A stretch of 64,000 nucleotides of DNA from Roseovarius sp. EL26 (GTDB lineage Bacteria > Pseudomonadota > Alphaproteobacteria > Rhodobacterales > Rhodobacteraceae). Shown here one piece after another: positions 7,705 to 43,285 of this stretch. The number at the start of each line of letters is the position of its first letter. Positions within the stretch are counted from its first letter, which is position 1. The translations under genes were made by a program, and so were the position numbers. A model generated the notes under the pieces. That model saw only the letters and a program-made list of their open reading frames with translations, had not been told where the DNA came from and ran no database searches. Location: NCBI RefSeq assembly GCF_900327775.1, contig NZ_OUMZ01000007.1, positions 1,537,606-1,601,605 of the forward strand, in the 5' to 3' direction.

Positions 7705-9864
7705 ATGCATAAGATCGACGCCAAGGAAACTACGGCTATAACCTCGGGAATTGTTCCCCTGCCCGGCCAGATCAAACGCTGGATCTCCCGGTTCCGGCGT
7801 GATGAAGACGGCGCAATGACAGTCCTGACCGTTTTCTTTGCCATCATCATGCTGATCATGGCAGGCTTCGGCGTAGATATGATGCGTTACGAGATGCACC
7901 GCGCCCGCGTTCAAAACACTCTTGATGCTGCGGTGTTGGCGGGTGCTGGAGCCGCCTCAGGCTTAAACGAAGCCAGAATCGAAGCAGTTGTAAAAGATTA
8001 TTTCAGCAAAGCCGGGCAACTTGGCACTCTGAACGAGTTCAAAGAGGGTGATATCGTCACCACATTGAACGCAGCTAAAGTTACCGCCTCGGCTGAACTC
8101 ACACTCAATACGTATCTGATGAAGCTGCTCGACGTGAACACGTTGCGCACGAAAGGCACTTCCACCGCCGAAGTGCGCATTCCCAAGCTGGAAATCTCAA
8201 TGGTGCTAGACGTGTCCGGCTCAATGTCTCGTACGGGCTCTGATGGGATTGTTAAACTTGACGCCCTCAAAGTTGCCGCCAAGGAATTTGTAACAGATGC
8301 GATGGCCATCGGCGACCCCGGTGATGTGATGATCTCGATCGTGCCATTCAGCTTCGGGGTGACCCCTTCCCTTGAGATTTTCAATGCCCTGAACGTGAAC
8401 CGGACACACAACAGATACGGTCAAGACTACGAAGACGAAACTCCACCATCCAGTCTAAACGAAACCTATTGCATCCGTTTCTCGGGCAACGACTACAACA
8501 ATACCGCCATCAGCACCTCCGATCTTCTTAAACAACGTATATATTCCTCGCGGTACGGTAATTTCGAGGAACTGGAAGAAGGCAGTAATCGCCCATGGCG
8601 GACTTGCTACACAGACAAATACTTCGAAATCCTGCCCTATTCGCTCAACAAAACAAAACTTCACGAGAAGATTGATGGCTTGGTCGCCAACGGCAACACC
8701 TCGGGGCACGAAGGCATCAAATGGGGGACAGGTCTGCTTGACCCAGAGTTTCAATCTGTTGCCCGTGCTATAGATCCGACACTCAGCAACATTCCCGCGA
8801 ATTATACAGAACCTGATACATTGAAAGTCATCGTGATGATGGGGGATGGGGCCAATACCTCAACCTACCAATTCCACCCACTTAGTGAATATGCCCTGAT
8901 CCAGGCTAACGGCGGAGTTTCGACTGGCTTGGATCTGAGCAACGCCACAGAATATCGCGGCCCTGATGGTGGAATGTACAAATTCACCTTCAACACTGCA
9001 GATTACCAACGCGTCCAACATGTAAATTATGGTACAGGCGGGGAGTGGAGAGCCAGCAACAGCACTCAATATATGTACCTGTGCAGTGATGATTACCCTC
9101 AATGGGTTTGCAACTATGATAACCGCGAATATGGCGTCGAAGAAACTTATATGCGACGCCCCGGCTCAAACACCTTCTACTTGGTAGAGGGAGCCTCAGG
9201 CCAATACAGAACATCGCGCACCTTTAATGAAATCACTTCCGAACTCCGCGGTACAAATCGAAACAATTCGCGCGAAGTCATGGTCTTAGATCAGAATCTT
9301 GAGACAGGCGGTGAATTCACTCGAGTGACCGATATTGGTAGTGATACAAGTAACATTGCGACACGACCGTTCAATCAGATCAGTAACACGCACAACAATC
9401 GCAATGATCTCACTAATGGCCCTTATCGAACGGTCGAGTTCACTGACACTGTTAATGGCGTTGCAAACACGACGGTCTTCGGGATGCAGCAATTCAGCTG
9501 GGAATACATGTGGGGCCATATCTCCCCCGAAGAATACTCAGACATCATCAGCGACAACAACACGGCATACAACGAATTCAAGAATACCGGCCAAGCCGCG
9601 ATCGGCGGAGATAGCAAGGATGATCGTATGGAAGACGCCTGCAATGCCGCACGCGCCCCAGGGAAAAACATGGTAATCTACACGATCGGCTTTGCGGTAC
9701 CCGTAGGTGGCACGGCTGAGCGAGAACTCAAAAAATGTGCCCACGGCGACACAAATAGCACTCCCGGCGTCGGCAGCTACTTTGCAGCTTCAAACCGCGC
9801 TGAATTGAGAAGTTCCTTTGGAGCAATTCTTGATCATGTGCAGAAACTAAGGTTGACGCAATGA
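7705..9864 (+). CDS. TadG-like protein with von Willebrand A domain
   Basis: 719 residues. A short basic cytoplasmic start (RRDEDGAM) leads into a single membrane anchor at about 38-58, the Tad_N arrangement of TadG/TadE-type proteins. A vWA domain begins near 163, with the metal-ion (MIDAS) motif DVSGSMS at 169-175 and DGANTS further on. The exported part is long, Asn/Thr/Tyr-rich and contains several Cys. The role is inferred to be envelope or adhesion, linked to the Tad (Flp pilus) machinery, but no tadA/B/C or cpa genes lie in the window. It overlaps the next gene by 4 bp, so the three genes form an operon. Confidence 0.85.
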   Translation: MHKIDAKETTAITSGIVPLPGQIKRWISRFRRDEDGAMTVLTVFFAIIMLIMAGFGVDMMRYEMHRARVQNTLDAAVLAGAGAASGLNEARIEAVVKDYFSKAGQLGTLNEFKEGDIVTTLNAAKVTASAELTLNTYLMKLLDVNTLRTKGTSTAEVRIPKLEISMVLDVSGSMSRTGSDGIVKLDALKVAAKEFVTDAMAIGDPGDVMISIVPFSFGVTPSLEIFNALNVNRTHNRYGQDYEDETPPSSLNETYCIRFSGNDYNNTAISTSDLLKQRIYSSRYGNFEELEEGSNRPWRTCYTDKYFEILPYSLNKTKLHEKIDGLVANGNTSGHEGIKWGTGLLDPEFQSVARAIDPTLSNIPANYTEPDTLKVIVMMGDGANTSTYQFHPLSEYALIQANGGVSTGLDLSNATEYRGPDGGMYKFTFNTADYQRVQHVNYGTGGEWRASNSTQYMYLCSDDYPQWVCNYDNREYGVEETYMRRPGSNTFYLVEGASGQYRTSRTFNEITSELRGTNRNNSREVMVLDQNLETGGEFTRVTDIGSDTSNIATRPFNQISNTHNNRNDLTNGPYRTVEFTDTVNGVANTTVFGMQQFSWEYMWGHISPEEYSDIISDNNTAYNEFKNTGQAAIGGDSKDDRMEDACNAARAPGKNMVIYTIGFAVPVGGTAERELKKCAHGDTNSTPGVGSYFAASNRAELRSSFGAILDHVQKLRLTQ

Positions 9865-11693: not shown

Positions 11694-12428
11694 TCACTCA
11701 GGTCGCGTGCCGATGTCACCCGCCCACCAAGAGCGTTTGACACCGTGATAAATCATCACCCGGTCGCCGGTTTTGAAATGGGCCAAATCATCCCAGACAT
11801 GTAGCAGGCTTGTGCCTTCGCGCCCCTGCGCATCCACCCAGACCAACCGGAAACGCGCGCGCCCATTGATCGTGATCATGCTTTGCTTGACCTCTGACAC
11901 CAGCGCCTCTTCGCGCGTGCCAAACCGCCGTGCACGCACACCGGCCACCGCCCAACGGCCAACCACCCACAGTGCCACCAGCCAGATCATCCCCAGCACC
12001 AGACTGAGCCGCGACAAAAACGTGGCCCCTGCCCGGTTCGCTCCGCGCGTCAATTCTACCTTGCTCGGCTGGTTCGGCAAATAAAGCAGCTCAACGCGCC
12101 CCCCTTCTTCCACATCGTCGTAAAATGACCGGGGTACCGAACGATCCACTTTCGTCAGATCGCCCCCCGTGGGCGTAAACTGCGCCACCAAGCGATAAGT
12201 GATCTCGATATCCCCATCAGGTTCACGATGCTCGCTGGTGTATTTCTTGACCACCTCGGCCTGCGCCAGCCGGCCTTCGTTTTCAAATCGCTCAGCCGTC
12301 TTGAAATTGCTCTGTCCAACCACACTAATCAGCAAGATCAGCCCACCCAATACCAACACAAACCAGCCGCCCATCTTCAGGAACAGTTGCACCACCGACG
12401 GCGGTCTTTGTCCGATCTCACCAGTCAT
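11694..12428 (-). CDS. DUF3592-like membrane protein
   Basis: About 244 residues from the ATG at 12428, preceded by GGAG. A first helix (VLVLGGLILLISVV) leads into an extracytoplasmic domain with the DUF3592 look (AEVVKKYTSEH, DVEEGGRVELLYLPNQPSKVEL). A second helix (MIWLVALWVVGRWAV) and a cytoplasmic SH3-like tail (FKTGDRVMIYHG) follow. Function is unknown. Probably co-transcribed with the gene at 11177. Divergent from valS. Confidence 0.75.
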   Translation of the reverse strand: MTGEIGQRPPSVVQLFLKMGGWFVLVLGGLILLISVVGQSNFKTAERFENEGRLAQAEVVKKYTSEHREPDGDIEITYRLVAQFTPTGGDLTKVDRSVPRSFYDDVEEGGRVELLYLPNQPSKVELTRGANRAGATFLSRLSLVLGMIWLVALWVVGRWAVAGVRARRFGTREEALVSEVKQSMITINGRARFRLVWVDAQGREGTSLLHVWDDLAHFKTGDRVMIYHGVKRSWWAGDIGTRPE

Positions 12429-12549
12429 CTGCGCCAACTCCCTCACAATCCGGCATCAAGCCGTACGAACCCGGCCCAAAACTCTTCCCCTTATGCTGCA
12501 CATTCGCTAAGGGAGACACAACACCGATGACTGAGGGACAGTGACGCAA

Positions 12550-15500
12550 ATGGCAATGGAAAAGACCTTTAACGCGGCCGAAGCCGAACCCCGCCTGTAC
12601 GAGGCATGGGAACAGGCCGGTGCCTTCAAGGCCGGGGCAAATGCCAAGCCCGGCGCGAAACCCTTTTCCATCATGATCCCGCCCCCGAACGTGACCGGAT
12701 CCCTGCACATGGGACACGCGTTCAACAACACGCTGCAAGATATCCTCATTCGCTGGAAACGCATGCAGGGCTTTGACACCCTGTGGCAGCCCGGCACCGA
12801 CCATGCCGGCATCGCCACCCAGATGGTGACCGAGCGTGAAATGGCCGCGGGTGGCGAGCCTCCCCGCCGCGAAATGGGCCGCGATGCGTTTGTGAACCGC
12901 GTTTGGCAGCAAAAGGTCAAATCCCGAGGGACAATCATTGGTCAGCTCAAACGCCTTGGTGCCTCATGTGACTGGTCGCGCGAGGCGTTCACCATGGGCG
13001 GCGCGTCAGGTGATCCTGACAAAGACAGCGGCGCACCCAACTTCCACGACGCCGTCATCAAAGTTTTTGTTGAGATGTACAACAAGGGCCTGATCTATCG
13101 CGGCAAACGTCTGGTCAACTGGGACCCGCATTTTGAAACCGCGATTTCCGATCTTGAGGTCGAAAACATCGACACCCCCGGCCACATGTGGCACTTCAAA
13201 TACCCGCTCGCGGGTGGGGCAACTTATACCTATGTCGAGAAAGACGAAGACGGCAACGTCACACTTACGGAAGAGCGCGACTATATCTCAATCGCCACCA
13301 CCCGCCCCGAAACCATGCTGGGCGACGGTGCGGTTGCGGTGCACCCCACAGATGAGCGTTACGCGTCAATTGTGGGCAAACTGGTTGAGATCCCGGTCGG
13401 GCCAAAAGAACACCGCCGCCTGATCCCGATCATCACCGATGAATATCCAGACAAGGATTTCGGCTCTGGTGCTGTGAAAATCACCGGCGCGCATGACTTC
13501 AACGACTACCAAGTCGCCAAACGCGGTGGCATCCCAATGTACCGCCTGATGGACACCCGCGGTCACATGCGCGCGGATGGCGCGCCGTATGCCGAGGCTG
13601 CCACTATCGCCATGTCCGTCGCACAGGGCGAACAAACCCTGACCGAGAATGAGGCTGACGCCATCAACCTCGTCCCTGATGACCTGCGCGGTCTCGACCG
13701 GTTCGAAGCGCGCAAGCTGGTGGTTGATCAAATCACCGCTGAGGGCCTCGCCGTGATGACCACCGCGACTCAAAAGGATGACGAGGGCAACGAGATCGAA
13801 GTCACCGTGCCCTACGTGGAAAACAAACCAATCATGCAGCCCTTTGGTGACAGATCGAAAGTTGTGATCGAGCCGATGTTGACCGACCAATGGTTTGTCG
13901 ATGCTGAAAAAATCGTTGGCCCCGCACTGGACGCGGTCAAGGACGGCCGGGTCAAAATCATGCCGGAAAGCGGCGAAAAGGTCTATTACCACTGGCTGGA
14001 AAACATCGAGCCCTGGTGCATCTCGCGCCAACTCTGGTGGGGTCACCAGATCCCAGTGTGGTATGGGCCAAAACTTCGCGATCCCGAAGAAACAAGTATC
14101 TGGAAGGGAAAAAAGTACAAGGATCTGCCGCGCGAGCATTCGCTTGGCTACGAAAACCCGACCGAAAATGCCTCTGCCGAACAAATAGCTTTTTGTGGTG
14201 CAACCAAAGAATCTGTTCGTGAAGCTGCAGCCAAGTACTATGCAAAAGTTGGCTACACAGCGGACGAAATAGTCTTTTCGGAAGACATCATCGGTGACTC
14301 GCCTCTAGGTGCCTACTCTGATCGCCCGCAGCTAACCCGCGACCCCGACGTTCTCGACACCTGGTTCTCGTCCGGCCTCTGGCCCATCGGTACGTTGGGC
14401 TGGCCTGAAGAGACCGAGGAACTCAAACGCTACTTCCCAACCTCTACACTAGTCACAGGCCAAGACATCCTGTTCTTCTGGGTTGCCCGGATGATGATGA
14501 TGCAGTTGGCCGTGGTTGATGAAATCCCGTTTGATACCGTCTACCTGCACGGTCTTGTCCGCGACGCCAAGGGCAAGAAGATGTCGAAATCTTTGGGCAA
14601 CGTCGTTGACCCGCTTGATATCATTGATGAATACGGCACCGATGCGCTGCGTTTCTCCTCGGCGGCGATGGCCTCTTTGGGTGGCACGCTCAAGCTCGAT
14701 ACATCGCGCATCCAAGGCTACCGCAACTTTGGCACCAAACTGTGGAACTCGGTTGCCTTCGCGCTGGACCACAAAGGCGCTTACGAGGCGGGCATGCCTT
14801 CGGCCACTCCGCCCAAGGCCACCGCTGCCGTCAACAAATGGATCATCGGTGAAACCGCCCGTGTTGTCGAAGTCGTCGATGCGGCATTCGCGCAGTACCG
14901 TTTCAACGATGCTGCACTGGCGCTTTATGCCTTTACCCGTGGCAAGCTCTGCGATTGGTATATCGAGCTGTCAAAGCCCCTGCTTGATGGCGAAGACGAG
15001 GCGCTGAAAGCAGAAACCAAAGCCACGTTGGCCTGGACCATCGATCAGGCGCTGATCTTGCTGCACCCGATCATGCCCTTCATCACCGAAGAGCTGTGGA
15101 CCCTGACCGGCGAGCGCAGCAAAATGTTGATCCACGCCGACTGGCCGACACTCAGCACCGATCTGATTGATCCTGATGCGGACCGCGAATTGAACTGGGT
15201 GATTTCCCTGATCGACGGCATTCGCTCTGCCCGCTCGCAAGTGCATGTGCCTGCTGGTCTGAAAATCCCGATGGTGTGTCAGTCGCTGGATGCTGCCGGA
15301 CAGGCCGCGCTAGAGCGCAATGAGGCGATGATTTTCAAACTGGCGCGGGTTGATAGTCTGACCCAGTCTGACACGCTGCCCAAAGGATCGATCACCGTGG
15401 CGGTCGAAGGCGGCACATTTGCCCTGCCGCTGGCGGATATCATCGACATCGACGCAGAAAAGTCGCGCTTGGAGAAATCCATTCAGAAGCTCGAAAAAGA

Positions 15501-26840: not shown

Positions 26841-26914
26841 GGCGAGTTGGCGGAGTGGTGACGCAGCGGATTGCAAATCCGTGTACACCGGTTCGATTCC
26901 GGTACTCGCCTCCA
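26841..26914 (+). tRNA. tRNA-Cys (GCA), hosting an integrated element
   Basis: A full cloverleaf: acceptor GGCGAGT/ACTCGCC, anticodon stem GCGGA/TCCGT with loop TTGCAAA (anticodon GCA), T arm ACCGG-TTCGATT-CCGGT and encoded CCA at 26912-26914. The sequence from the anticodon loop onward is repeated in altered form at 32965-33008, marking this gene as the attachment site of the island that follows. Confidence 0.97.
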
Positions 26915-26962
26915 TTTACTTTCAATAACTTAGCAGCACATGACGCAGACCGGCACCGCCGT

Positions 26963-26985
26963 GTCTAAACATTTGTCTAAACATT
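26963..26985. promoter_or_regulatory. candidate integrase arm-type sites, left end
   Basis: Two direct copies of GTCTAAACATT at 26963-26973 and 26975-26985 (12-bp step), about 90 bp inside the left attachment core. The same motif recurs inside the right end. Direct repeats of this kind inside both ends are what the N-terminal arm-binding domain of lambda-type integrases uses. Inference from position and repetition. Confidence 0.5.
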
Positions 26986-27054
26986 CTGTTTTTGTTCTGT
27001 TCCCGAACGGCCCTCTGATAGCCCTGCAATCCGACTTAGAAGACCCAGAATCTG

Positions 27055-27237
27055 TCAGTCTTCAACATTGCCAAGAGCGAGCAAAAGCGGGATCGCAAAC
27101 AACGGAGTGCCAGCGAGAGAAATCAGCACCCAGACGATCGCACTGCGACCGCGAGTAATCGCCATGCCCCATGGCAGAAAAATGTAGAGCCAGAGAACAA
27201 ACACAAGAACGACGAGGGCGAACAGGAATTCAATCAT
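27055..27237 (-). CDS. small two-helix membrane protein
   Basis: 60 residues: two hydrophobic helices (FLFALVVLVFVLWLYIFLPW and AIVWVLISLAGTPLFAIPLLLAL) separated by a short polar loop, negatively charged C-terminus (NVED). A GGA-containing site lies 8 nt before the ATG at 27237. No family recognised. It is the first island gene after the tRNA and lies 51 bp beyond the integrase stop on the same strand. It could be a superinfection-type or immunity membrane peptide, but nothing proves it. Confidence 0.5.
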   Translation of the reverse strand: MIEFLFALVVLVFVLWLYIFLPWGMAITRGRSAIVWVLISLAGTPLFAIPLLLALGNVED

Positions 27238-27288
27238 GTATTTTCCAAATAAAAAACGCGGCCAAAACTATTCGCCACAAAAATCTGA

Positions 27289-28293
27289 CTAGCGGCCCTG
27301 TTCCTTCCGCATTCGCTGCGCCTTCACGGCTCTAATCCGTTGGCGCACTTTCTTCGTGTAGTGTTGCACCATTGCCGGGCTTTGCCCCGTTACCGATGCT
27401 ACCAAATCGTCGCCACAACCCGCTTCGACAAGCTCACATGCAGCGTTGTAGCGCCAGCTATGGATGTCGTAGCGCACCGCGCCAATCTGCTCCCTGACGT
27501 TTCTGACAGCCTGTGAGGCACCGCGATAGGACCAGCGGTTGATACCCCGCTCATTTGTCAGGATGAATACAGAATGGCGACTTGCGGCATCTAACGCTGC
27601 TTGGAGCTCAGGGAGGATCGGAACCCAGAGTTCTTTACCGGTCTTGTTCTGACGAATGACAAAACCGCCCTCCTGAATATCGGACCAGCGCATTTCAAGC
27701 ACATCCCCGATACGTTGCCCCGTGCCGACGCAAAGCTCCATCACAAGCCGTTCCCGCGTCCCCAGTGGGCACGAATCCCGATAAGTTTGCAAAAGCTCGT
27801 GAGGCCACGGTTCCCGCTCCTGCTTTTCCGTTTTTATCTCAGATACCCCCTTGGCCGGGTTGTTGTCCCGCCAACCAAGGTCAACACAATGCTCCATGAC
27901 CACGCGCAAAACGCGCAGGGAGTAATTTGCAAAGTAAGGTTTGCTTGCATTCGCATCGCGAAGCCGGATCACATCCTTGCGCTTCATGTTTGCCGGGTTA
28001 GTATCCGCCATGATCGACAGGAAGAAATCTAAATACTTGTCGTAATCCAGCGCAGTCCGAGGCTTGAGCCGCTTGTACCGGGGCGAGCTACGGTAATTTT
28101 TGATGAGCGCCGAGAAATTGCGCACATTAATCCGCTTTGGTTCCGCTCGACCCGCGAGAATATCCGCGTATTCTTTCCAAAACTCGGGGGTGCTGAATTC
28201 GTTTTGAAACTTGCGGGACGGCCAGCCGCGCCGCTGGAAGTAAATCCCGTTGCGCTGGCGATAGGCATGCTTCGGTAACTCACGCTTTGTCAT
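27289..28293 (-). CDS. int: tyrosine recombinase/integrase
   Basis: 334 residues. A basic N-terminus is followed by a core-binding domain (about 55-150) and the catalytic domain. Active-site residues: Arg194 in GTGQRIGDVL, a Lys in the beta-hairpin NKTGKEL (217/220), HSWR (His278, Arg281) and nucleophile Tyr312 in QHYTK. The usual second His is Gln304 (TGQS), which is tolerated in some members. It integrates and excises the island at tRNA-Cys, whose 3' half is duplicated 4.7 kb away. Its stop points to the adjacent att site, and it overlaps a small upstream ORF by 14 bp. Confidence 0.93.
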   Translation of the reverse strand: MTKRELPKHAYRQRNGIYFQRRGWPSRKFQNEFSTPEFWKEYADILAGRAEPKRINVRNFSALIKNYRSSPRYKRLKPRTALDYDKYLDFFLSIMADTNPANMKRKDVIRLRDANASKPYFANYSLRVLRVVMEHCVDLGWRDNNPAKGVSEIKTEKQEREPWPHELLQTYRDSCPLGTRERLVMELCVGTGQRIGDVLEMRWSDIQEGGFVIRQNKTGKELWVPILPELQAALDAASRHSVFILTNERGINRWSYRGASQAVRNVREQIGAVRYDIHSWRYNAACELVEAGCGDDLVASVTGQSPAMVQHYTKKVRQRIRAVKAQRMRKEQGR

Positions 28294-28453
28294 GACGCAT
28301 TTCTATCCTCTCGAATTCATCCAACTGGTTCATTTCGCTGAATACAATTTCAATCCTACTGCCTTCAACAGTGACACGCCCAACCGTTCGCCCAGCGCGT
28401 TCGAAGGCGCTGAGCAGCCGCAATGCTTTTTCTTCAATCGTAGTGCGTGCCAT
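28280..28453 (-). CDS. 57-residue protein overlapping int (excisionase-like candidate)
   Basis: A frame from ATG at 28453 to TGA at 28280 encodes 57 residues: MARTTIEEKALRLLSAFERA, then GRTVGRVTVEGSRIEIVF and a charged tail. It has a helix followed by two strands. Its last 14 bp overlap the integrase start, so both must be co-translated. Small proteins of this shape (a helix, then VxVEGxRIEIVF) recur directly upstream of alphaproteobacterial integrases from memory; the role as recombination directionality factor or integrase partner is inferred, not shown. Confidence 0.6.
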   Translation of the reverse strand: MARTTIEEKALRLLSAFERAGRTVGRVTVEGSRIEIVFSEMNQLDEFERIEMRHDKA

Positions 28454-28786
28454 CTTCGTCTAACCTTGCAGCGTCTCTGTCCAAGTGCAATCGCGCATCC
28501 TTTCGGCTGAATGTGCGTTTGCGCCCATGCAATCAAACTTGTGCCAAAGGTATTCACCCACTGAATCGCTGACAACAGAAGGAACTCGAAAAACCAAATG
28601 TTTAAGAAGGGGGTGTCACCACGCCCCCAAATGTTCGCGCTACGTTCTCCACGCAACCTACTTCGAAAGATAAAAATGTTCTCGGCTGAAGATAACGCTT
28701 GGCGCAGGCCATTCGGAGGCAATCACGCCAAATGTTACAGTTGGGAGGTGTCATTAAATGTATACAGGAACAAGGTAGTGCGTACA

Positions 28787-28843
28787 GACGGGCGAGCCCG
28801 CGCGCTTACGCGCGCGAGGCATCGCCTATGACTGACGTCCGTC
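28787..28843. other. nested GC-rich hairpin
   Basis: Nested pairing possibilities: GACG (28787) with CGTC (28836 or 28840), GGCGA (28791-28795) with TCGCC (28822-28826), and CGCGCG (28799-28804) with CGCGCG (28809-28814) around the loop CTTA. It looks like a structured RNA or protein-binding DNA rather than chance, but no family is recognised. Confidence 0.4.
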
Positions 28844-28854
28844 AATCCGGCCCG

Positions 28855-28903
28855 CCCCACTCCTCCTCCGATACTTGAAGTCTCCGGAGGAGCGGGGCTT
28901 TGT
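28855..28903 (+). terminator. terminator-like hairpin in the island
   Basis: CCCCACTCCTCC (28855-28866) pairs with GGAGGAGCGGGG (28886-28897) with one A/C mismatch, followed by CTTTGT. The T run is weak, so it could equally be the 3' hairpin of a small RNA starting near 28780. Confidence 0.4.
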
Positions 28904-29060
28904 AATGTGCAAATCAGCAGAACATCGCGAGTTTTATGGCAGGCGACAACGCCCAAGGACGCGACCTGAACAGCGGTTATAGGCTATAGGTAGGTGAGAC
29001 GCCAAAAAGCATCAAGCGGCACCGTAGCCCACCGTCTAAACGCCTCTCCGCTGAAGCCAG

Positions 29061-29172
29061 TCGGGCGGAAAGCGGACATTCTCTGCGGATACGAGTGAAC
29101 TGGCCTGTTCGGCGGGAAGCGGACGTTCTCTGCGGGTCCGAAATAACCAAGCCTCGACCGTGGAAGCGGACA
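29061..29172. repeat. imperfect ~30-bp direct repeats
   Basis: Two copies of a TCGG(G)CGG-AAGCGGACATTCTCTG type unit at 29061-29090 and 29109-29137 (step 48 bp) and a partial third, GGAAGCGGACA, at 29162-29172. They sit about 130-240 bp upstream of the DUF4062 gene. Function unknown. Confidence 0.5.
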
Positions 29173-29296
29173 ATTAAACGAAACTTCACCACAGCAAGCT
29201 AACCAATTTTCTCAACGTGTTGATCAAAAAGAATGGCTGTAAACATGGTCAGGATTGTCGTGTTGGGGTAAGACGATCTCAATAATGAGGTCATCA

Positions 29297-31771
29297 ATGC
29301 AGGACAAAATGAAACTTATTCGAGTGTTCATCGGTTCGCCGGGTGGTTTGGAGGACGAACGCCGTGCTGCTCATGCAATCGTTGAAGAGGTAAATCGAGA
29401 CCATAGTGAGCACTGGGGTTGCCACTTTAAACTACTTGGATGGGAAGACACGGTTCCCGGCTATCAACGACCGCAATCTAAAATCAATGAAGACCTAGAT
29501 CGTTGCGACTATTTTATTGGCGTTTTGTGGAATAGATGGGGAACAACACCTACAAACGATCCCGCTGGATACACTTCAGGGTTTGAAGAAGAATTTCACC
29601 GCGCTGAACGTAGAATCCAAGAGGGCAAGATGAAGGACATGCTTCTCTTGTTCAAAAAAGTCGAGATTCCTGCTGAGCTTGAACCGGGAGAAGACCTGAA
29701 AAAGGTTCGCGATTTTCGACAGCAGCAAATCGACGGTAAGCGTAACTATTTCAGAGATTTTGAAGACCTGAGTGGATTCAAAGATGCTATTCGCAGCAAG
29801 CTAAATGACATCGGCTGGAAAGAGGCTGGGCATGATCGAACCGTCGCTGACGATGACAGCGCGCCGACAAACAGGGCCGAACCTGAACATTCGGAAAGCA
29901 CTCAAGAAGCATCTGAAAATGCGGGACTTCTTGAGGGCGAAGCCCGGTCTTTCGTCACTGGATTCTTAAGCAAGTCGGACGCTTGGGAGGAAACAAGTCC
30001 ACACGAAATTGCTCGCTTTAGGTTAATTGCCACGTCAGTTTCTCGCTCAGGAAATGACGAACTTTATTTGAGCAATCACGACGCAAACTTGATGTTCCGA
30101 CACTACAGGAACGAGAAGCTTTCAGATCAAGAATTTACGGCACTTATTGATAGTGGTGTAGCCGGCTTTGAGCATAGTAATGTGCCTCTTTGGCGGTGGG
30201 TGGCCAAAGGGGACATGCTAGACCATGCCTTGTTTTTTCGTCTTAGACTGCTGGCGACCGTTGGCGAGGATCGCGAGAAGGTAAACTCGATTAAGGTCCT
30301 ACAATTATTGGGAAGTGGAATCCCTTCGCACGACTCGGAGTTCAACGTGGCCAATGTTTTGAGGTGGTGGTTTGCCGAAGGTTCGAGCGAACCAACCTTC
30401 AATGCAGCGATTTCTTTTTTGGCGACGAATGCGACGGAGTCTGAATTACCGTTCGTCGAGCAGGCGCTTTCTGAAGCTCCTGAAAGCCGAAGAGATAGGA
30501 TCGAAGGGGCAATCGTTGGAATCCTTTCAAGAGTAAGTGTGGATAAGGCACTCAAGAGAGTGTGCGAGCGCGGGGTTGACAGAATCCCAGAACCTGTTGT
30601 GAAACGTTTGTTTAATAGCGCCGCTTCACTTTCGACAGATACATTACTGGAATGCCTGTCTGCGAAATCTGATAGTGTAAGAGTTCCTTCAGCGCAGTTG
30701 CTGGCGGACCGATCCGAAATTAAACTTGAAACAGCTCAGACACTCCTCACGGATAGTAATCTGGATATTCGTCTTGTGGCAGCGGAAGTGCTTCATAAAT
30801 TGGGATTACCACTAGATGAGGAAGTTGCCAAAACCGCTCTCACACAGAAGAAAAATGTAGGTCGAGGGCTACTTGGTCTTTCCATGACTGCCGAGCGAGA
30901 TACCACGAGGTATGACGCATATAGGCAAAACCGTCTGTTGGAAATGAGCGAAACAGAATTAAGAGATCGGGCCTCCAAAAAGCTAATTTTTCAAAGTGAC
31001 GAGCTTGCGGCGTTATTCGACAAATTTCGCTCGAAAGCAGCGATACAGAAGGAGCTTCGACAGAATCTGTCGGATGGGTTTGAGAAATACTTTCAAGCAC
31101 GGATTGCGGCTGCGAGAGAAAAATATGGCGCAGATGACAAAGTTATCTCTGACTCTGAGAACCTATCTACATATTACCGACTTCGACTTTCCAGTTTAGC
31201 ACTTGAGGCGCTTTGTCGCCTTCAAAAACGTGACGACCTGGATTTGGTTAGGCAGGTACTGACAGAGTTTGAAGTTGCCGCTAGTCCAAACATTTTATCA
31301 TACTTCAAGAAGTTTGGTGAGTGGCGCGATATCACTACGGTTGATGGTATGAGCAACGTCGCCCGAAACACGAATGCTCTTCTAGCGTTAGCGTCCGTGG
31401 ACTATTCGGCTGAACGAGCATCGACCATTTTGCAGATTGGAAAGACGCGCCTGTCTGATCTTTTGGAATTGGAATTAAAGCATCCGACAAGACTTGCGTT
31501 GCTCAAAAAAATACCCGCTACCAGCTTGAGGGAACTACACGACGATGTTCTTCTGCGCGAGTTGAGCAGAGACGATAATGAAAGCCGGATCGTGTTTGCC
31601 CTGAGATGTGTTCAGGCATTGCCAAAGTCGCGGGTCGCCGGATTGCTAGACCGATATATGGATGCAGACGCGCAGCGATACTACAACAGCATTCATTGGC
31701 TTGATCTTGGAGCGTCATTGCCGACTCGCATTGCCAAGTCTGTTGCAGCTAGAGCACTTGAACAACGTTGA
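29297..31771 (+). CDS. DUF4062 (TIR-like) protein with HEAT-like repeats
   Basis: About 824 residues. The N-terminal ~170 residues are a DUF4062 domain: IRVFIGSPGGLEDERRAA, LGWEDTVPGYQRPQSKIN and CDYFIGVLWNRWGT show the TIR-related alternating strand/helix pattern. A charged linker (about 190-230) follows. The remaining ~580 residues are alpha-helical, with HEAT-like units such as DSVRVPSAQLLADRSEI and DIRLVAAEVLHKLGL. No P-loop NTPase motif is found, unlike many DUF4062-STAND proteins. It is the main cargo of the tRNA-Cys island. A sensor-effector role in anti-phage defence is an inference from domain type and island location. Starts at 29285 or 29309 are also possible. Confidence 0.75.
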   Translation: MQDKMKLIRVFIGSPGGLEDERRAAHAIVEEVNRDHSEHWGCHFKLLGWEDTVPGYQRPQSKINEDLDRCDYFIGVLWNRWGTTPTNDPAGYTSGFEEEFHRAERRIQEGKMKDMLLLFKKVEIPAELEPGEDLKKVRDFRQQQIDGKRNYFRDFEDLSGFKDAIRSKLNDIGWKEAGHDRTVADDDSAPTNRAEPEHSESTQEASENAGLLEGEARSFVTGFLSKSDAWEETSPHEIARFRLIATSVSRSGNDELYLSNHDANLMFRHYRNEKLSDQEFTALIDSGVAGFEHSNVPLWRWVAKGDMLDHALFFRLRLLATVGEDREKVNSIKVLQLLGSGIPSHDSEFNVANVLRWWFAEGSSEPTFNAAISFLATNATESELPFVEQALSEAPESRRDRIEGAIVGILSRVSVDKALKRVCERGVDRIPEPVVKRLFNSAASLSTDTLLECLSAKSDSVRVPSAQLLADRSEIKLETAQTLLTDSNLDIRLVAAEVLHKLGLPLDEEVAKTALTQKKNVGRGLLGLSMTAERDTTRYDAYRQNRLLEMSETELRDRASKKLIFQSDELAALFDKFRSKAAIQKELRQNLSDGFEKYFQARIAAAREKYGADDKVISDSENLSTYYRLRLSSLALEALCRLQKRDDLDLVRQVLTEFEVAASPNILSYFKKFGEWRDITTVDGMSNVARNTNALLALASVDYSAERASTILQIGKTRLSDLLELELKHPTRLALLKKIPATSLRELHDDVLLRELSRDDNESRIVFALRCVQALPKSRVAGLLDRYMDADAQRYYNSIHWLDLGASLPTRIAKSVAARALEQR

Positions 31772-31888
31772 ACGGCAGCATTGCGGACAGCGATTGCAAA
31801 ATCTTGAAAGCTGGATGAATGACAGGTTTGGGCCGTTGACCGTGATGGAGGTCTAGCGCATCTTTTAGAAAGGAAAACAGGCTACAAA

Positions 31889-32362
31889 ATGACCAAGAGT
31901 GTAACTCAGGATGATCGGGACCTACTCTTGGCGGAGTACCAACCCCTTAGGGAAGAGGTTAATCGAACTGTTGACCGAATGACGGCGAATGAGCTTGCCT
32001 GCTCTGCATTTGTATTTTCGATCATACTGTTTCAGATCTCAACGAAGAACGTAACGTCGATACCAGACTGGATCGTGATTCCGTTTGGGGCGTCCTTGGC
32101 GATGGTCGTTGCGTTCGTGGGGCATGAACGTTCCAAAGTTTTTAGGCGCCACATGGACCAAGTTGAAGAATATCTGGCCAACATAGAGCGAGTGCTAAGC
32201 AGTCAGTTTGGTTGGACCAATCACTATCGAGATGTGATACAGCCGTCTGATGCGAGACAGACCGGTTCTCGCCGAGTGCTATGGCACATTTTGCGTTTCG
32301 TGGCTCTGGCAAACTTTATTTTCCAATGTGCCGCGCTTTTCTATCCGAATCCTGTGGCTTAG
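31889..32362 (+). CDS. membrane protein of the island, unknown
   Basis: 157 residues: an N-terminal charged helix, two membrane helices (FVFSIILFQIS and IVIPFGASLAMVVAFVG), a cytoplasmic helix (VFRRHMDQVEEYLANIERVL) and a third hydrophobic segment near the end (LRFVALANFIFQCAALFY). The 2TM-helix plan recalls small SLATT-like effector membrane proteins, but I cannot assign that family. It is 118 bp behind the DUF4062 gene on the same strand and plausibly the membrane partner of that protein. Confidence 0.55.
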   Translation: MTKSVTQDDRDLLLAEYQPLREEVNRTVDRMTANELACSAFVFSIILFQISTKNVTSIPDWIVIPFGASLAMVVAFVGHERSKVFRRHMDQVEEYLANIERVLSSQFGWTNHYRDVIQPSDARQTGSRRVLWHILRFVALANFIFQCAALFYPNPVA

Positions 32363-32545
32363 TCTAAATAGGTTTCGATAGGGATTTTCTTACATCAATG
32401 AATGACCGCTATGAGGAATGCAATTGCAGCATGGTTAGGCGCTGCTCAAGGTCGGCTTTGGGCCGAGAGGTTCTCTTTATCAAGCTTCGAAAGAAAAACC
32501 GAGCTAGACATAAAGCTTCCACGTAAACGCACAGGATCCGATAAC

Positions 32546-32851
32546 ATGCACCTTCCATACAAAATAAACCTAATCGATCACGAGCGCTGGATCTCGACAG
32601 GCTACAACCGTTCGTTCGCATGGGGCTTGGTTCTGAATGATGCCGCTAAGGAATTGGGTTTCTGGCGGGTTGTCCGGTACAATCCTAACTTGGATACGGA
32701 AGGCGGTTGCTACGAATTTTCATTGGAGAAAACCGGACCGGCGATCGCTTCTGAAGAGTTTTCGTTCCTTGATTCAGAGGTCAGCAGGGGTGCCGCTCTA
32801 TCTGACTTCGTCGCTAAGATTTTGAAGTGGGAGAAGCGCCGGAAACTCTAA
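32546..32851 (+). CDS. small protein of unknown function at the island edge
   Basis: 101 residues from an ATG preceded by AGGA at good spacing; an in-frame ATG at 32402 would add 48 residues but has no ribosome-binding site. Sequence MHLPYKINLIDHERWISTGYNRSFAWGLVLNDAAKELGF has no recognised motif and no membrane helix. It is the last gene before the right attachment site. Its role with the two upstream genes is unknown. Confidence 0.5.
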   Translation: MHLPYKINLIDHERWISTGYNRSFAWGLVLNDAAKELGFWRVVRYNPNLDTEGGCYEFSLEKTGPAIASEEFSFLDSEVSRGAALSDFVAKILKWEKRRKL

Positions 32852-32880
32852 CTCAGGCCAAAACTTGCACTGAAAGCACG

Positions 32881-32933
32881 TGTCTAAACATTCACGCTAT
32901 GTTCCGGCATAATTCGGCAGCTATCTAAACACT
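32881..32933. promoter_or_regulatory. candidate integrase arm-type sites, right end
   Basis: TGTCTAAACATT at 32881-32892 and ATCTAAACACT at 32923-32933 match the pair inside the left end. They lie about 35-85 bp inside the right attachment core, in the same strand orientation. Inferred as arm sites of the island integrase. Confidence 0.45.
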
Positions 32934-32964
32934 TTTCCCAACATTTTCAGCCACATACCTAGTC

Positions 32965-33008
32965 TTGCAAATCCGCGTACAGGAGTTCGATTCTCCTACT
33001 CGCCTCCA
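32965..33008 (+). repeat. displaced 3' half of a tRNA-Cys (attachment site remnant)
   Basis: Starts with TTGCAAATCCG, identical to the anticodon region of the intact tRNA-Cys, and ends with the same ACTCGCCTCCA. The T arm differs (AGGAG/CTCCT instead of ACCGG/CCGGT) but still pairs fully, so it comes from a real tRNA gene. Similarity continues about 20 nt past CCA. It is the sequence the island pushed away when it replaced the 3' half. Confidence 0.85.
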
Positions 33009-33222
33009 TTTAACTTCAATGACTTAGCCATCCATCCCCGTTACGCGGGAGGGTCATTTTACATGCCATTTTACAATTTTATTGCCGATGCGTTCTCAAA
33101 TCACCCTATTTGGACCCATAGGTGCTGACGTCAGACACTGTTCTCCTAACAACCGCGTGCGTTGCATCCCCTGCGCAGGTGTGAAACCTTCTGCACGACT
33201 TAAGCGGTTGCAGGGGAACAAC

Positions 33223-41679: not shown

Positions 41680-41752
41680 TTTGCCTGCGTCCAATTTGAT
41701 CCCTGCGTGGTCGCAATTCAGATATTGCCGACTTGCAACCGTGGTACTTTGA

Positions 41753-43285
<1,533 letters not shown>

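Follow-up and report, generated by a model that had tools for sequence, protein, structure and literature searches.

Within a 64,000-nucleotide (nt) stretch of the Roseovarius sp. EL26 genome (contig NZ_OUMZ01000007.1; herein the window, in whose positions all coordinates are given), a 6.1-kb element occupies a tRNA-Cys gene. We consider it, at a probability of about 0.62, to be a mobile defence cassette of the integrase-only kind, carrying as its main cargo a single-gene NAD+ hydrolase (NADase) that acts by abortive infection, akin to Swarozyc and DSR, in which a TIR-like DUF4062 domain is fused to a long region of HEAT-type repeats.

An integrase-only cassette and its sisters

The element carries an integrase, left and right attachment sites (attL and attR) and TCTAAACA motifs at either end. 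The tRNA-Cys is followed by the integrase gene on the minus strand, a gap of ~1 kb, the DUF4062 gene, two small genes (genes 2 and 3) and a second tRNA 3′ half, such that the 3′ part of the tRNA is repeated at 32965-33028 (84% over 64 nt). An earlier note, made from the sequence alone, had described an island of this kind with a rebuilt tRNA and a displaced 3′ half; the attachment repeat, the Pfam assignment of the integrase and the fit of the displaced half to the tRNA-Cys of relatives all confirm it, and the island end that the note had placed at 33008 is indeed the last base of the displaced half. The element's framework comprises the following features:

26841..26914, plus strand: tRNA-Cys (GCA), rebuilt with the attachment half of the island (ARAGORN and Rfam); attL core from 26871
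26963..26986, plus strand: motifs GTCTAAACA (26963-26971) and GTCTAAACATTC (26975-26986) of the left end, candidate arm sites for the integrase
27289..28293, minus strand: tyrosine integrase, 334 amino acids (Phage_integrase PF00589, 63.1 bits against a cutoff of 27.1)
28844..28903, plus strand: conserved stem-loop in the spacer that separates cargo from integrase (44-55 nt matches in sister cassettes L073, L078 and L082; fold z = -2.86)
32882..32931, plus strand: right-end motifs GTCTAAACATTC (32882-32893) and TCTAAACA (32924-32931), from comparison of six cassettes
32965..33008, plus strand: attR, the 3′ half of the host tRNA-Cys, displaced and with a T-stem of AGGAG/CTCCT type (repeat and alignments)

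The T-stem differences between the two tRNA halves are paired, being of the CCGG type in the rebuilt tRNA and of the AGGAG/CTCCT type in the displaced half. A tRNA-Cys pattern search found matches in 32 of 60 genomes (30 of the 39 places being taken as loci for comparison), with a CCGG T-stem in 26, GGAG in five (G011, G015, G019, G023 and G024) and CGAG in one. When the island flanks are joined in silico, they match GGAG-type loci at 95.7% over 93 nt (G019), 95.5% over 89 nt (G024), 96.2% over 79 nt (G015) and 92.8% over 97 nt (G023), the CGAG-type locus at 94.6% over 74 nt, and the CCGG-type loci of other genomes at a lower 80-91%. Because the joined flanks fit GGAG and CGAG loci better than CCGG loci, the displaced half most likely represents the native host allele, the new allele having presumably been supplied by the island. 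Several same-genus genomes (G003, G010, G014, G028 and G029) hold the tRNA-Cys 3′ half in two to four exact copies, and the site is therefore probably a general hotspot. Locus L123 of G029 encodes a cytosine methyltransferase, a phosphoribosyltransferase-like protein and a CARF protein.

Integrases at least 75% identical to that of the window occur in four of 60 same-genus genomes searched (G012, G019, G020 and, as a 104-residue piece only, G001) and, among 248 genomes of the family (the window's own included), in G456, G470, G474, G523, G538, G564, G594, G601, G609 and G612; a match in G657 covers 68 residues only. In other genomes these relatives are 75-92% identical, some of them partial or broken. 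We compared 14 integrase loci (L020 and L071-L083, leaving out G657), nine of which have the neighbouring Pcm gene, and found the right end in five. At L071, L072 and L079 the orientation of the related integrase to tRNA-Cys is the reverse of that in the window.

Cassettes elsewhere share the same ends, related integrases (77-86%) and a similar size, the tRNA halves lying 6.1 kb apart in the window, 5.3 in L020, 5.9 in L073, 5.8 in L076 and 5.9 in L082. L078 starts within the left end, its right end lying at 5.8 kb on the contig. Both the left end (26841-27002) and the right end (~32880-33010) recur at the DNA level among related cassettes, the latter in five others, in register to the TTGCAAATCC core and above chance. 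Across the six aligned cassettes the left GTCTAAACA motif is invariant and the left GTCTAAACATTC has one base changed in one; at the right end TCTAAACATTC is invariant and the motif nearest attR has one or two changed bases in three. By analogy with lambda-type integrases, we take the two GTCTAAACA-type motifs near attL and the two TCTAAACA-type motifs near attR to be likely arm-binding sites. Among the publication matches listed, we noticed none on this tRNA-Cys cassette family.

Between shared ends, the cargo is exchanged. L082 carries a full-length Dsr1 (PDLC02183, 1213 bits, with a SIR2_2 domain), L076 an MmeI-like type IIG restriction enzyme (1601 bits), and L078 a cyclic oligonucleotide-based antiphage signalling (CBASS) set (patatin phospholipase, CD-NTase and E2) plus an SNase; known defence systems thus fill three of the five sister cassettes with a found right end, and none was recognised in the other two. 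In L073 (G012, 12154-15120) the sole large cargo is a 988-residue AAA and cold-shock-domain protein with weak defence matches (best E 2.5e-4), a candidate new defence gene, and the cargo of L020 comprises two unassigned proteins, an SNase that PADLOC matches weakly (E 5e-5) and a homologue of gene 3. Because same-site sisters carry Dsr1, a type IIG restriction system and CBASS, we read the window cargo as a defence gene as well; this is the strongest evidence supporting that reading, and it is evidence of position, not of function. A cargo that serves the element itself, by stabilising it or excluding rival elements, would suit elements that compete for a single tRNA site, as the five same-genus genomes with more than one tRNA-half copy may illustrate, but the systems catalogued as phage defence among the sister cargo make this very unlikely.

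Integrase-only defence islands of unclear mobility have been described from the E. coli pan-genome (PMC10121019). The window element resembles them in its integrase and attachment repeats at a tRNA and in having no other known mobility gene (family profile searches of the four island proteins gave no relaxase match, and the sole phage-family match besides the integrase is a weak one of gene 2, E 0.024); the further likeness, a defence cargo, would hold here only by way of the sister cassettes. It differs in host group, and in that ends, arm-like motifs and cargo exchange are here resolved for one integrase family.

A DUF4062 domain joined to HEAT-type repeats

The main cargo gene and its parts are as follows:

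29297..31771, plus strand: DUF4062 (TIR-like) and HEAT-type repeat protein, 824 amino acids (DUF4062 35.8 bits against a cutoff of 24.7)
29321..29605, plus strand: DUF4062 domain, residues 9-103 (Pfam PF13271)
29591..29593, plus strand: codon of E99 in an SG(F/T)xEE stretch, candidate NADase catalytic residue (invariant in 11 of 11 DUF4062 domains)
30227..31660, plus strand: HEAT/alpha-repeat region, ~residues 311-788, putative sensor (predicted helical repeats; HEAT and alphaREP matches)

The earlier note had described this protein as a TIR-related DUF4062 protein with HEAT-like repeats and no P-loop NTPase. Its domain assignment is upheld by the PF13271 match above cutoff, and family profile searches matched no NTPase family at E <= 1. 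The repeats fare less evenly: with 19.5 bits the window protein misses the HEAT_2 cutoff of 27.7, and by sequence HEAT_2 covers only ~residues 446-513 of it, but two of three close relatives pass the cutoff (31.7 and 29.0 bits; 21.6 in the third), and helical repeats are predicted. The full-length AlphaFold2 model (mean predicted local distance difference test score, 62.4) is good mainly in these repeats, with ten-residue blocks of at least 80 at residues 351-520, and the predicted repeat part resembles HEAT and alphaREP chains in structure comparison.

Invariant in 11 diverse DUF4062 domains (window numbering) are S14, P15, E21, R22, N33, E50, Q60, G82, S94, G95, E99, F119 and F140, and E98 is kept in 10 of them. 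On this conservation E99 is the natural candidate for a catalytic glutamate. The model of the N-terminal domain is weak (54.6): Foldseek returned no match to it at E <= 0.001, and the top ten VIA-align rows, all with Z below 8, hold five TIR chains and five from the NDT/DNPH1/MilB group. The 50 rows shown divide into 22 that contain TIR, 14 NDT-like, seven Ras, three LOG-like, two ChlH and two others, with SPARTA, SfSTING, DNPH1 and MilB counted in the TIR and NDT groups. This low-confidence ranking agrees with the kinship reported in a 2026 preprint (PMC13174449), which presents DUF4062 domains as TIR-like NADases behind the single-gene antiphage system Swarozyc, whose member KpSwz is activated by phage portal and requires E97 and a helix-turn-helix (HTH)/winged AUX domain. 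We infer that E99 is the equivalent of KpSwz E97. These antiphage NADases, together with the Dsr1, type IIG and CBASS cargo of the sister cassettes, make the defence role proposed in the earlier note a probable one.

A fold that resembles NDT/DNPH1 in addition to TIR also suits a DUF4062 domain that makes a signal or is non-catalytic, still within defence, rather than one that depletes NAD+; the same preprint allows for more complex mechanisms among DUF4062 proteins, with only TEP1 active among four human ones. Such a domain seems quite unlikely to us given that the invariant glutamate is retained and no other island gene resembles a known downstream effector.

The window protein shares with Swarozyc an N-terminal DUF4062 TIR-like domain (PF13271, with TIR and NDT folds leading the low-confidence model comparison), a conserved glutamate (E99, in all 11 domains of an alignment outside which KpSwz lies), the single-gene format and the tie to defence islands and horizontal transfer. 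It differs at the C-terminus: in place of the HTH/winged AUX domain with which KpSwz binds the phage portal, the window protein has long HEAT-type repeats and no HTH Pfam match, a comparison in which AUX is known by description only and residues 191-312 of the window protein are without assignment. DSR2, according to PMC11263360, consists of Sir2, HTH, a helix bundle, six HEAT repeats and a C-terminal domain, regions that the tail tube protein contacts. With DSR2 and DSR1 the window protein has in common one gene, an NADase-type N-terminus and, by the model and by Pfam matches in relatives, a long HEAT/helical region after the effector, and Dsr1 itself fills the L082 cargo slot; the effector, however, is DUF4062 instead of SIR2 (no Pfam or PADLOC match to SIR2 at E <= 1), and no sequence similarity to the L082 Dsr1 is detectable. 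Its architecture is like that of Swarozyc and DSR2 but lacks one defining feature of each, and we therefore file it as a variant. The N-terminal part also matches the PADLOC phage-defence candidate PDC-S60 (79.1 bits), but only residues 6-202 align, with profile positions 3-196 of 906, far from most of the profile. The earlier note had recognised no named system here; this is outdated for the DUF4062 part, which is now reported in Swarozyc, but we found no HEAT-fused form described in the parts of PMC13174449 that we consulted (the one word in its main text beginning with "heat" is "Heatmap"). Among the matches listed for DUF4062 literature of 2019-2026 (titles and abstract openings), phage defence appears in one paper, and no DUF4062-HEAT publication was noticed.

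In the mechanism that we favour, the HEAT-type arm (~residues 311-788) would hold the N-terminal DUF4062 domains in check until a phage product, probably a structural protein (cf. the portal for Swarozyc and the tail tube for DSR2), binds to the arm; the TIR-like domains would then assemble and hydrolyse NAD+ via E99, and NAD+ loss would halt the infected cell.

Scanning genome contigs with two short patterns brought out three intact full-length relatives, at 51% (best segment) in Roseovarius mucosus, 51% in Marivita hallyeonensis and 49% in Chelativorans xinjiangense. A fourth relative (32%), on an Asticcacaulis plasmid (L009, 7001-10305), is split by an IS5 transposase. Among 100 related genomes (the window's own included) the only other full-length match is in G024, the same relative as in R. 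mucosus DSM 17069, with an N-domain match in G046; the 248 family genomes add no other full-length match and N-domain matches in five, with open frames of ~400 residues in four. The protein is rare in the sampled genomes. The mobile settings of its relatives differ: one lies in a tRNA-Val island that has an integrase of its own and an att-like repeat (79%), another within an element carrying an integrase, Prim-Pol and a relaxase, and one near a contig end. The ~400-residue DUF4062 proteins at L005 (G046) and L124-L127, among which the Pfam scan covered L005, match the DUF4062-HEAT profile only N-terminally and are candidates for ordinary Swarozyc.

Genes 2 and 3

Two small genes follow the main cargo:

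31889..32362, plus strand: gene 2, small, nearly orphan membrane protein, 157 amino acids (hydropathy; homologue searches)
32546..32851, plus strand: gene 3, 101 amino acids from the ATG at 32546 (homologues in the family's genomes and on plasmids, not DUF4062-specific)

According to the earlier note these act together with the DUF4062 protein. All three intact relatives (49-51%) stand without genes 2 and 3 in their fetched flanks (for Chelativorans, only ~530 bp downstream), and a gene 3 homologue lies beside unrelated cargo in L020, so a three-gene unit is not supported; the occurrence of the main protein without its two partners, which the earlier note had itself named as telling against the idea, is what this small sample contains. 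That first reading is thus partly supported, being right on the island, probably right on defence and, as far as the data go, wrong on the three-gene unit.

A narrower proposal is that in this lineage the DUF4062-HEAT protein and gene 2 form a two-gene system, the latter as co-factor or second effector. Gene 2 lies on the same strand 117 nt past the DUF4062 stop, a AGAAAGGAAAA stretch precedes its ATG, and a terminator scan of the intervening gap gave no match. Its homologues are nevertheless absent from L006, L007, L008 and all other compared loci save the window's (tblastn, E <= 0.01) and from the sister cassettes (E <= 0.001); no match was found in 384 other genomes of the class, plasmids or viral contigs, and the only relative in 247 other family genomes is weak (24%, E 2e-4; G587), with no DUF4062 gene within the 8.6 kb read. 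We regard the two-gene system as unlikely; gene 2 may be either a passenger or an accessory peculiar to this copy. Of the three membrane segments originally proposed for it, two exceed a simple hydropathy threshold (residues 58-80 and 133-152) and the third is plausible, not confirmed.

Gene 3 is a small protein as first described, with a corrected start. Homologues align from about residue 42-60 of the 149-residue reading, and the closest (L020), though aligning from residue 32, has its own ATG at 8877 preceded by an in-frame TAG, so that 101 residues are probably the better reading. No match was found in 384 other class genomes; of 247 other genomes of the family four have one, as do four plasmids, and on two of three plasmids inspected the homologue comes after genes for an XRE regulator and a DUF3892 protein. 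In L020 it adjoins attR of a same-site cassette with different cargo. Since gene 3 recurs with other neighbours, it would appear to be a mobile-element passenger rather than a DUF4062 partner.

Upstream of the DUF4062 gene are two 39-nt direct repeats (82%; 29056-29094 and 29103-29141), a possible regulatory site, whose 19-nt core pattern has no other exact occurrence in the whole genome. Elsewhere in the window is a cobalamin riboswitch (41743-41945, 112.3 bits).

Cassettes as a possible source of immune systems

With three of the five resolved cargo slots holding a known immune system, the unassigned cargos at this site are good candidates, and the cassette family becomes a practical finder for immune systems. 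More tentatively, in a reading that is less likely than not, the cassettes may form a family of ~6-kb defence shuttles with one tRNA-Cys integrase and conserved arm motifs flanking a single exchangeable immune system, in which the DUF4062-HEAT protein would be a second DSR-type effector/sensor architecture reading a new phage protein, tuned in this host by the membrane protein; if so, the L073 AAA/cold-shock protein and the L020 nuclease cassette would be new defence systems too. Were gene 2 needed, it would add a membrane step to a pathway so far described as one-protein. The window protein links the newly reported DUF4062 NADase family to a repeat-type sensor known from SIR2 NADases, and this fusion suggests that effector and sensor modules are swapped among bacterial suicide-defence proteins.

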